Source: Rickettsia typhi
GTDB lineage: Bacteria; Pseudomonadota; Alphaproteobacteria; Rickettsiales; JABSSG01
Direction of reading: 5' to 3'
Assembly: GCA_945877755.1 (NCBI GenBank)
Contig: CAMCSP010000005.1
Coordinates: 1-33,848, forward strand
DNA length: 33,848 nt
The position numbers and the translations under genes are program-made. Below, piece by piece: positions 2,123-5,794 of the stretch; the first letter of the stretch is position 1; each line of letters starts with the position of its first letter. The notes beneath the pieces were generated by a model that had not been told where the DNA came from, searched no databases, and saw only the letters and a program-made list of their open reading frames with translations.

Positions 2123-2767
2123 TTATTTGATATCATCAAATATTGCTAAATTATATGCATCATTCCAGAAATGCCATTCCAAGCAGGTGCTTTTATAAAA
2201 AACATCTAGCATTTTTTCACGTATTTCATTAGTGGTGTTTTCACCTAGTTCATCAAAAATTTTAATTACTACGTCAACTGATCCACTGAAAGATTCACTT
2301 GAGTAATTTTTAATCCAATTGGTATAAGTATTATTGTTAACTGAATTTTTAGAGATTGATAACCCAACTTCTCGGTATGCCCAAAAGCAGGGCAATAATG
2401 CTGCAACTGCTAATTCTACTGGTTCAGTTGCACAAATACTTACTAAATAACTAGTGAAGCTTATTGTTGTCGGAGCAATTAATCCCGTTTTTATTACACC
2501 TGGATTTTTAGCAAAAATTCCTTTTCCGGCAGCAAAACAATTATTAGCATGTTGAAGAAATATAGGTGCATATTCTGATTTAATTTTTGCTGCAATAATG
2601 GAGTTGCACCTGCCAAAATCATGTAGCCAAAGACTATCTTGTTCAATGTAATAAGAAAATCTGTTATGAGCTAATGTCCCACGCGCCATTTCTTGATTGA
2701 ATGGATGCGAAGTAGCTGCATTAATAACGCTTACTGATTTTTGCCATGCTTGTTCAGATAATTTCAT
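2123..2767 (-). CDS. tenA: TenA family protein (thiaminase II / aminopyrimidine aminohydrolase, TenA_C type)
   Basis: TenA-like fold motifs; AALLPCFWAYREVG carries the TenA_C active-site Cys context; located in a TPP-riboswitch operon. Confidence 0.9.
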   Translation of the reverse strand: MKLSEQAWQKSVSVINAATSHPFNQEMARGTLAHNRFSYYIEQDSLWLHDFGRCNSIIAAKIKSEYAPIFLQHANNCFAAGKGIFAKNPGVIKTGLIAPTTISFTSYLVSICATEPVELAVAALLPCFWAYREVGLSISKNSVNNNTYTNWIKNYSSESFSGSVDVVIKIFDELGENTTNEIREKMLDVFYKSTCLEWHFWNDAYNLAIFDDIK

Positions 2768-3492
2768 AAAGACCTCGATTTATTATTAATTACATTGTCT
2801 AGTATTATTCCAACTTCACTTAGGTTAGTTACGGTAATATCTGGTTTTACTTCTGGTCTTGGGTTTCCTACTAAAATAGACGTGCAACCAGCAGCTTTTG
2901 CTGAAGTCACGTCTCCTGGAGTGTCTCCTAGATATAATATTGATCTGCTAGGAGCAATGCCGATAGAGTTTAGAGCTTCTATTAGCAAATCTGGACTAGG
3001 CTTAAGATGCTGATCATTTTTTGAACCAATAACAACCGAAAAATAATCACTAAGTCCAAGTATTTCAATCTCTTTTACAAGTAAGTTATGATCTAGATTA
3101 CTTACAACTCCTTGTGGTAATCTATAATCTTTTATTCTTTTGATTAGTTCCTCAGCACCTGGTATTAGATTACTTCTTGAGAGAGGGTGTGTAGAAAAAT
3201 GATGACGAAAGGCCTCAAGCGCCTCTTCTGTTTTTGTTTGGCATTGCATGGTTCGTGTAAAAGTATCACGAATGGATTTTGAGTCTGCTAGAGACTGCAT
3301 TTTTGGATGACCAAACATAAACAATACTTCGTTTATACTATTAAGAAATTGATTTCCTCGAAACTCCATCAAAGTTCCGTCCCAGTCGTAAAATACCCCA
3401 GTTATGCCATTTGACAAAGAACGAGTGGTGGTTACAGTTTGTAAGTACCTAGGAGTAAAATTCATTTGTAAGTGTCTGGGAGTAATTTTCAT
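2764..3492 (-). CDS. HAD superfamily phosphatase (candidate thiamine monophosphate phosphatase)
   Basis: DWDGTLMEF, VVSNLDH, KPSPDLL, LYLGDTPGDVTSAKAAG HAD motifs; ATGA overlap with tenA. Substrate assignment is inference from context. Confidence 0.85.
   Translation of the reverse strand: MKITPRHLQMNFTPRYLQTVTTTRSLSNGITGVFYDWDGTLMEFRGNQFLNSINEVLFMFGHPKMQSLADSKSIRDTFTRTMQCQTKTEEALEAFRHHFSTHPLSRSNLIPGAEELIKRIKDYRLPQGVVSNLDHNLLVKEIEILGLSDYFSVVIGSKNDQHLKPSPDLLIEALNSIGIAPSRSILYLGDTPGDVTSAKAAGCTSILVGNPRPEVKPDITVTNLSEVGIILDNVINNKSRSL
3439..3492 (-). repeat. 27-nt tandem direct duplication at the 5' end of the HAD gene
   Basis: ttgtaagtacctaggagtaaaattcat / ttgtaagtgtctgggagtaattttcat, 22/27 identical; both units encode M-x-x-TPR-x-LQ and both begin with an in-frame ATG. 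Confidence 0.8.
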
Positions 3493-4127
3493 AATGAGCC
3501 CATATCCTCAATGGTTTCGGTGTAGATCATCACCAATAATTTTCCTTCAAGAACTTCTATAGTAATATTTTCTGAAACAGTTCTGTTAAAGCAGGAATTA
3601 TTTCCTGGAAATTGTAATGTTTCATCATTTAATTCCCATTTTAAACCTAAAGTTCTAACTTTTGCCTTTGTCATAGCTAGTAGTGATATTTTAGTATTTG
3701 GCGTTAAAACCAAATTAGAGACAGTATGTCCTTTTAAGACATAGCCAATTAATGGCGGAGAATAGAAGGAGCATTCATTTTCGGCGATGATATTGATATT
3801 GTATAAAATATGATCGATAAACCCGCCACCAATACCAAATACAATAGTAGGTAATAATTGATTTTGAGCAAGATAGTGTAATGCTTTCTGGAAATCTGAC
3901 TGATCTTGATTAGGCAAATAAATTATTTTTCTGTCTGGGTGGTTATCACGTTCAATACTATCGAGATCGCCAATGATTATAGATGGTTCTATTCCGATCT
4001 TTAGCAATTTATCAGCAGCACCATCAGTCGCAACAATTACTTTATCTTCAGTAAAGAAGTGACTGGTTGGCAAGTCGCCGTTCAAGCATAAAATGGATTT
4101 GGCATTTTGATAACATTTAAGTGGCAT
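3489..4127 (-). CDS. thiamine pyrophosphokinase (TPK)
   Basis: VIVATDGAADKLLKIGIEPSIIIGDLDSI...DQSDFQKALHYL matches the TPK catalytic domain pattern. Confidence 0.9.
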   Translation of the reverse strand: MPLKCYQNAKSILCLNGDLPTSHFFTEDKVIVATDGAADKLLKIGIEPSIIIGDLDSIERDNHPDRKIIYLPNQDQSDFQKALHYLAQNQLLPTIVFGIGGGFIDHILYNINIIAENECSFYSPPLIGYVLKGHTVSNLVLTPNTKISLLAMTKAKVRTLGLKWELNDETLQFPGNNSCFNRTVSENITIEVLEGKLLVMIYTETIEDMGSL

Positions 4128-4377
4128 CGTAATATCTTTTTTGAAATATAGATATCAAGATAGTTATTAAGCCAACTACATTACTATAAATAACAAAATC
4201 GGCACCTGTATATAGACCATAAACAATCCATGATATGGAGCAGCCAAGAAAGTTGTATAGCATGACTTTTGATATATCATGTGCTGATTTTGTTTTGTAA
4301 GTTTTGTAGATTTGTGGAATAAATCCAACAAAAGAAGTAATGGTGGCTATAATACCAAATAGATCAACTATGTTCAC
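4117..4377 (-). CDS. SemiSWEET / PQ-loop (MtN3-like) small transporter, candidate thiamine-compound transporter
   Basis: DLFGIIATITSFVGFIPQIYKTYKTKSAHDISKVMLYNFLGCSISWIVYGLY is PQ-loop/SemiSWEET-like. The ORF track starts at 4395, but that ATG lies inside the riboswitch aptamer; the in-frame GTG at 4377 preceded by ggaggga is the more likely start. Confidence 0.82.
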   Translation of the reverse strand: MNIVDLFGIIATITSFVGFIPQIYKTYKTKSAHDISKVMLYNFLGCSISWIVYGLYTGADFVIYSNVVGLITILISIFQKRYYDAT

Positions 4378-4382
4378 ATCTC

Positions 4383-4462
4383 CCTCCGCTAGCATTAACT
4401 AGATCAAGTTGTAAGGGTATTTCTCAGCTGAAAAAGTAAATTCTAAATCAGCACCCCTGGTG
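4383..4462 (-). promoter_or_regulatory. TPP riboswitch (THI element)
   Basis: Reverse complement reads ccaggggtgctgatttagaatttactttttcagCTGAGAaatACCCttacaacTTGATCTaGTTAATgCtAGCGgAGGGA, containing the diagnostic THI-box elements (GGGGTGC, CTGAGA-ACCC, TGATCT, AGCGNAGGGA) directly upstream of a thiamine operon. Confidence 0.95.
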
Positions 4463-4603
4463 AATTATTTTCAAGCTGACTATACATTATGGCTGATTTT
4501 TGTCAAGAGCATTCTGTAGTTTAGATATTGTTATTAAAAATAATTGTGATTTTTGCTAAATGGTAGTACCAATAAATAAGATTTATTTTTATTTACTGAT
4601 TTC

Positions 4604-5794
4604 ATGAATAAGGTTTCGTTACCACCATTTTGGATTATCGCGTTTATTGCGGGGTTACCGTTATTTGCTGAAACGGCTTATACACCGTCATTGCCTGACA
4701 TTGCTTGCGCATTAAAAGTTTCAGAATCAATGGCTGAGTATACACTTACTGTATATATTTTTGGCATGGCTATTGGTATTCTTTTCTGGGGACATCTTTC
4801 TGATAGAATTGGACGAAAGCCTTGCATTTTAGGAGCCCTATGCTTTTTTATACTTGGTTGTGTAGGTTGTTATTTCTCTGAGTCAATTCACATTTTGATG
4901 TTCTTTAGACTTATTCAGGCATTCGGTGGGAGTGTAGGAAATGTACTCGCTCAATCTATTGCTAGAGATGCATTTCAAGGACCAGCTTTAGGAAAAGCAT
5001 ATTCTGTAGTTGCTAGTAGCGTAGCGCTTTTTCCGGCTATCGGTCCAGTTATTGGTGGCCATATAGCAGAGTATTTTGGGTGGTATGATATTTTTTTATT
5101 CCTTATAATTTTTGCACTAGTTTTGGGTTGGGCTGTAGTAAAAAAACTGCCTGAAACTCATGGAGTAAAAGATCAAAAGTCAATATCCTTTAAAGAAGTA
5201 TTGCCAATTATGCTAAAGGATAAAAAACTTATTGGCCTTGGATTATTGGTAGCTGCAAGTAATGGTTTGGGGTTTTGTTATTTTGCAGAAGCGCCATTTT
5301 ATTTAATGAATCTTCTTGGGTTGACCACTAGTGAATATGGTTTTACTTTTATCGCTATTGCTATTAGCGCTATGTTTGGTGGATTGTGTTCGGCAAAACT
5401 TCAAGATAATTATACGTCTAGGACTATTTTAGGATATGGGCTTTTATTGATATTGATTGCCGGCTTATCATTTAGCCTAATCATAATATATAATACAGAA
5501 ATTGAGCAAATGTCTAATCTTGCGCTAATTATTGTTGCGGTTACAGCGCAAATGATTTTTACTTTTAGTAGAGGCTTAGTTAATAGTAATGCTCTTGCAT
5601 TAGCCTTGGTCGATTACAAATGGTGCGTTGGCACGGCATCTAGCTTGTTTGGCTGTTTCTATTATTTCACTGTATCATTATTTACTTTGGGTATGGGGGC
5701 GTTACATAATGGAACATTGTTACCAATGCCACTATATTTCTTCGCAATTGGTTTGTTTATGATGTTGGTGAGGAGAATAACCATGCGTGGTTAA
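4604..5794 (+). CDS. MFS transporter, Bcr/CflA-type drug efflux family
   Basis: AETAYTPSLPDIACALKVSESMAEYTLTVYIFGMAIGILFWGHLSDRIGRKPCILG typical of Bcr/CflA. Confidence 0.88.
   Translation: MNKVSLPPFWIIAFIAGLPLFAETAYTPSLPDIACALKVSESMAEYTLTVYIFGMAIGILFWGHLSDRIGRKPCILGALCFFILGCVGCYFSESIHILMFFRLIQAFGGSVGNVLAQSIARDAFQGPALGKAYSVVASSVALFPAIGPVIGGHIAEYFGWYDIFLFLIIFALVLGWAVVKKLPETHGVKDQKSISFKEVLPIMLKDKKLIGLGLLVAASNGLGFCYFAEAPFYLMNLLGLTTSEYGFTFIAIAISAMFGGLCSAKLQDNYTSRTILGYGLLLILIAGLSFSLIIIYNTEIEQMSNLALIIVAVTAQMIFTFSRGLVNSNALALALVDYKWCVGTASSLFGCFYYFTVSLFTLGMGALHNGTLLPMPLYFFAIGLFMMLVRRITMRG

Follow-up and report, generated by a model that had tools for sequence, protein, structure and literature searches.

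Background

SemiSWEETs are three-helix membrane proteins known as sugar transporters, and a SemiSWEET facilitator may transport in either direction. Among described systems, the pnuT-tnr3 genes of Bacteroidetes (PnuT-Tnr3) are controlled by a TPP riboswitch, and PnuT was shown to carry thiamine (PMC5613172). A thiamine pyrophosphokinase (TPK) gene beside a SemiSWEET gene was reported in Legionella cherrii by Jia et al. in 2018, together with the suggestion that SemiSWEETs move secondary metabolites; this was a single case, reported without a riboswitch, an explicit thiamine-transport claim or an alphaproteobacterial group (PMC5972207). For Rickettsia, metabolic reconstruction recovered no vitamin transporters of the usual ECF type (PMC5615194). 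Our literature searches found no report joining a SemiSWEET with a riboswitch, and nothing relevant on TPP riboswitches with PQ-loop proteins, or on SemiSWEETs with Wolbachia, beyond the Legionella study.

The stretch of DNA analysed here (33,848 nucleotides, hereafter the window) belongs to a small-genome, Rickettsiales-related alphaproteobacterium. Its SemiSWEET gene is clustered with a TPK gene as in L. cherrii, and its operon shares with PnuT-Tnr3 the succession of a TPP riboswitch, a small transporter gene of SWEET-like fold and TPK. The transporters themselves differ, since PnuT is a full-length PnuC-family protein (PF04973) whereas the window encodes a three-helix SemiSWEET (PF04193/PF03083). 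PnuT-Tnr3 can be regarded as a functional precedent, by analogy of riboswitch, transporter and TPK, for the SemiSWEET-TPK operon. The riboswitch-transporter-TPK design and one SemiSWEET-TPK neighbourhood were thus already known; what is new is a riboswitch-controlled SemiSWEET, which appears well supported by its genomic context.

Operon structure and translation start

A THI-box aptamer upstream of overlapping minus-strand genes had been predicted from the sequence, and the prediction held on both counts. Rfam model RF00059 matched above its gathering threshold across the whole aptamer, which runs straight into the SemiSWEET gene, and Pfam and TIGR matches confirmed the order SemiSWEET, TPK, HAD phosphatase and TenA, with overlaps of 4-11 bases between the genes (Table 1). 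The second gene product matched the TPK equivalog model with both its catalytic and B1-binding domains, and the last one reached the equivalog level for TenA while also matching TENA_THI-4 at 99.9 bits. None of the equivalog models scored above cut-off with the HAD protein.

Table 1. Features of the SemiSWEET operon region, in window positions.
Feature	Position	Strand	Match or remark
Promoter-like TTGACA-16-TATAGT	4479..4506	-	Immediately upstream of aptamer; probable
TPP riboswitch aptamer (THI box)	4364..4468	-	RF00059, 67.1 bits (gathering 54.3), E 2.7e-11, full model 1-105 on 4468-4364; RBS and start codon of first gene inside
SemiSWEET/PQ-loop three-helix transporter, 86 aa	4117..4377	-	GTG start; putative thiamine importer
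Thiamine pyrophosphokinase (TPK)	3489..4127	-	TIGR01378, 119.8 bits (cut-off 76.4); Pfam PF04263 and PF04265
HAD-IA family phosphatase	2764..3492	-	Pfam HAD_2, 86.3 bits; candidate thiamine monophosphate phosphatase
TenA (aminopyrimidine aminohydrolase / thiaminase II)	2123..2767	-	TIGR04306, 133.8 bits (cut-off 130)

The promoter-like site agrees with the consensus at 11 of 12 positions and was the top site of the region scanned, in which chance sites are frequent (20 found versus 12.1 expected). The same region yielded no site resembling an intrinsic terminator. A divergent gene of the Bcr/CflA-type MFS family (4604-5794; TIGR00710 above cut-off) adjoins the riboswitch operon and, elsewhere in the window, a GrpB (UPF0157) domain is fused to a GNAT acetyltransferase domain (205-1143).

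Two starts were considered for the SemiSWEET gene. GTG 4377 is the more likely one because it lies immediately 3' of GGAGGGAGAT, because the alternative ATG 4395 falls within the aptamer and because relatives start at the equivalent position. The Shine-Dalgarno sequence GGAGG is part of the aptamer 3' side (P4) and the start codon lies in or beside the P1 3' strand, a placement conserved across the leader alignment. Upon folding, the start codon was mostly paired in all seven SemiSWEET leaders; in those of G025 and L046 it was partly or wholly paired to a downstream hairpin and not to P1, and in that of G077 two of its three bases were paired. Since both translation signals are located inside the aptamer, TPP should block translation directly, and sequence and folding together suggest that this most likely occurs without a separate expression platform.

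The SemiSWEET protein

The first gene product matched Pfam families PQ-loop (51.6 bits) and MtN3_slv (38.6 bits), both above cut-off, and these were its only matches, PF04973 (NMN_transporter, PnuC/PnuT) being absent. Its AlphaFold2 model (pLDDT 91) displays helices at residues 3-29, 37-57 and 60-85, that is the single three-helix bundle with PQ motif of the SemiSWEET/MtN3-like clan; in the alignment with its relatives, P21 and Q22 are invariant. The protein belongs to the superfamily and falls outside every curated NCBIfam subfamily (NF037967-NF037969), the best score being 55.4 for NF037968 versus a cut-off of 80. SemiSWEET structures 4rng, 4qnc and 4x5m were its best PDB matches in sequence and fold; SemiSWEETs also ranked top in Foldseek, although with weak E-values (best 0.045). 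Like these sugar SemiSWEETs, it has three helices, the PQ motif, Trp50 and Asn66; it departs from them in its scores below the NCBIfam cut-offs, in N42-C46-S47 of helix 2 and in its thiamine operon setting.

Comparison of 28 members of the thiamine-linked group with 75 other SemiSWEET sequences revealed a series of group-specific residues (T14, G18, N42, C46, S47 and Q79), each present in at least 89% of the group and in at most 7% of the others. PQ, W50 and N66 were retained on both sides. The helix-2 residues N42-C46-S47 correspond to hydrophobic-Gly-hydrophobic in the other SemiSWEETs. As N42, C46 and W50 are spaced four residues apart on helix 2, they lie on one helix face, which fits an altered pocket if that face lines it as predicted. 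On a tree with too few alignment columns to establish a single clade, support was 16 for the grouping of all 28 thiamine-linked SemiSWEETs and 80 for that of the closest 26; the thiamine-link label required one change, versus about 25 in shuffles.

Distribution and gene neighbourhoods

A survey of 130 genomes of the order identified some SemiSWEET in 55 of them and a window-like one (E-value 2e-16 or better) in nine. In a scan of GTDB genomes with a single peptide pattern, which may miss more distant members, the near relatives (41-69% identity) all came from Alphaproteobacteria or unplaced proteobacteria. They originated from Rickettsia endosymbionts of Bradysia and Culicoides, from Holosporales, Holosporaceae and rumen bins, from a Peranema endosymbiont, from Candidatus Arcanobacter and from two Wolbachia records, one of which, wOc, consists of a low-coverage 14 kb contig and may be contamination.

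Linkage to thiamine genes extended across genera. At 19 of 25 loci (relatives with at least 41% identity), a SemiSWEET of the group adjoined TPK or thiE-thiM-thiD, and TPK was directly downstream in 17 of the 25. The locus of G025 displayed the order SemiSWEET-TPK-thiE-thiM-thiD with two tenA genes. At one locus (L045, JAIRKP010000030.1), SemiSWEET and TPK are in one open frame, the junction containing neither a stop nor an in-frame ATG, GTG or TTG ahead of the TPK core; this is a metagenome assembly whose upstream end has no standard start, so that an assembly error is possible. A TPP riboswitch preceded the SemiSWEET gene at eight distinct loci (window, G025, G057, G071, G077, G120, L043 and L046). 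Six loci were devoid of thiamine neighbours (L053, L057, L059, L061, L062 and L063). The SemiSWEET frame of G120 is broken, the TPK frame of G127 is split and N66 is lost in the latter, which looks like decay. At L053, a gene for a DXS-like, TPP-dependent enzyme directly follows the SemiSWEET gene (3394-5426) and an rpsA-like gene precedes it; an rpsA-like gene was also found upstream of the SemiSWEET gene at L045, L057 and L059.

A general tendency of SemiSWEETs to adjoin TPK could be ruled out: 73 loci of SemiSWEETs outside the group, drawn from the order, the wider phylum and more distant taxa, were all without a TPK neighbour. RF00059 gave no match at the 39 of these 73 loci that were scanned. 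A plasmid search with TPK returned a single distant match only.

Thiamine genes across genomes

Among 115 genomes of the order, the SemiSWEET group was present in seven and TPK in eight; both occurred in five, always side by side. TPK was thus found in 5 of 7 genomes with the group versus 8 of 115 overall (hypergeometric p about 7e-6, ignoring shared ancestry), and a TPP riboswitch, anywhere in the genome, in 6 of 7 versus 18 of 115 (p 4e-5, again ignoring shared ancestry). The original prediction of a new thiamine-compound transporter therefore stands on two points, the RF00059 match and the many further genomes in which relatives accompany THI boxes and thiamine genes; transport by the protein is a candidate function.

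TPK and ThiL were nearly exclusive in the genome set, both being above cut-off only in G105. Genomes that have TPK without a member of the SemiSWEET group include G033, with a TPP-controlled SSS-type symporter (L090 42-1439), and G017, with a TPP-controlled membrane protein without NCBIfam match (L104 1591-2913), which looks like the replacement of one transporter by another. TPP riboswitches were also observed ahead of MFS transporters at L102, L105 and L107, with thiE next at the last two and a metabolite/H+ symporter type at L107. In G001, a TPP riboswitch is followed by an SsuA/NMT1-type substrate-binding protein and a Thi4 thiazole synthase-like FAD protein (L093 1696-3102). PnuT could be dismissed as the real transporter, PnuC/PnuT (PF04973) being found in none of 13 genomes. 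De novo thiazole synthesis was likewise rejected: ThiG matches were weak (19-30 bits), covered about 100 of 247 positions and lay within longer frames; they probably represent other proteins.

The window genome (1.26 Mb, 94% complete, 109 contigs) yielded no thiM, full thiD or thiL. It had been noted that the operon contains no thiM, thiD or thiE, which is correct for the operon; thiE, however, is located on another contig (C83, L002 78-912), where a second TPP riboswitch controls it, and runs to the contig end, so that thiM, thiD or other genes may be lost to the break. The accompanying view that uptake plus TPK is the main salvage route was only half right: main-route status is not established, because genes downstream of the TPP-controlled thiE would be lost at that contig end.

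ThiE would produce thiamine monophosphate (TMP) and ThiL was not found, which makes the window HAD protein a good candidate for a TMP phosphatase supplying TPK. Bacterial and plant HAD enzymes were described as TMP phosphatases by Hasnain et al. in 2016 (cited in PMC4921024). As that work is cited, these enzymes are, like the window HAD, linked to thiamine genes, and a TMP phosphatase with TPK replaces ThiL; the window HAD differs from those so described in having a gene of its own, placed between those for TPK and TenA.

Substrate and proposed mechanism

We regard the operon, with good confidence, as a TPP-repressed system for thiamine uptake and activation, in which the SemiSWEET probably serves as a minimal importer of vitamin B1. 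Of the substrates originally proposed, thiamine is the best guess. Genomes G071, G120 and G127 have SemiSWEET and TPK, and no thiE or thiM was found in them, nor thiD or thiL above cut-off; TPK would thus have no evident supply there other than imported thiamine.

An alternative cargo would be a precursor or degradation product of thiamine, namely hydroxymethylpyrimidine (also in its amino or formylamino form) or hydroxyethylthiazole, to be rebuilt to thiamine phosphate by TenA, ThiD, ThiM and ThiE. The window operon includes TenA, and G057, from the same genus as the window, kept the riboswitch-SemiSWEET pair followed by thiE-thiM-thiD-tenA (L041); thiL is present and TPK was not found in this genome, whose SemiSWEET could therefore transport a precursor. 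The TenA-ThiD-ThiM-ThiE route could however serve either to cut and rebuild thiamine or to use an imported precursor, and the window TenA could equally cleave imported thiamine. SemiSWEET-TPK alone is moreover the commonest arrangement, and a precursor would be useless in the three genomes above. We consider this reading unlikely. The protein might also be an ordinary sugar SemiSWEET whose presence among thiamine genes has an indirect cause, for example that TPP enzymes limit sugar use. Sugar SemiSWEETs indeed share its fold and the PQ, W50 and N66 of its pocket, but the repeated linkage to TPK, unmatched at the 73 other loci, the open-frame fusion, the TPP riboswitch and the separate residue signature make this explanation quite improbable. 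Transport of thiamine phosphates (TMP or TPP), for which classical Rickettsia lacking any thiamine kinase and considered TPP importers (PMC5615194) offer a parallel, or thiamine export, which facilitators running both ways would permit, is highly improbable, as recurrent pairing with TPK is sensible only with unphosphorylated thiamine and an exporter repressed by TPP would be backwards.

Under the thiamine uptake reading, a SemiSWEET dimer would pass thiamine across the inner membrane and TPK would convert it to TPP, thereby trapping it and driving net uptake. The HAD protein would recycle TMP, and TenA damaged pyrimidine. Once abundant, TPP would bind the aptamer, whose 3' strands hold the translation signals of the SemiSWEET gene, the Shine-Dalgarno sequence in P4 and the start codon in P1; translation of this gene would stop and that of the overlapping genes would probably drop too.

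On balance, we favour somewhat the view of a dedicated SemiSWEET group, found so far in host-associated alphaproteobacteria, that would have exchanged sugar for vitamin B1 as its substrate and would represent the smallest known vitamin B1 transporter, read in one lineage as a single open frame with its trapping kinase. The TPK-linked SemiSWEET represents a concrete, 86-residue thiamine transporter candidate in several symbiont lineages, namely some Rickettsia endosymbionts, Holosporales-type bacteria and possibly Wolbachia. If true, this would be the first SemiSWEET group in the literature searched with a regulatory and operon case for a vitamin substrate, and it would provide a natural experiment on specificity change in a minimal transporter.
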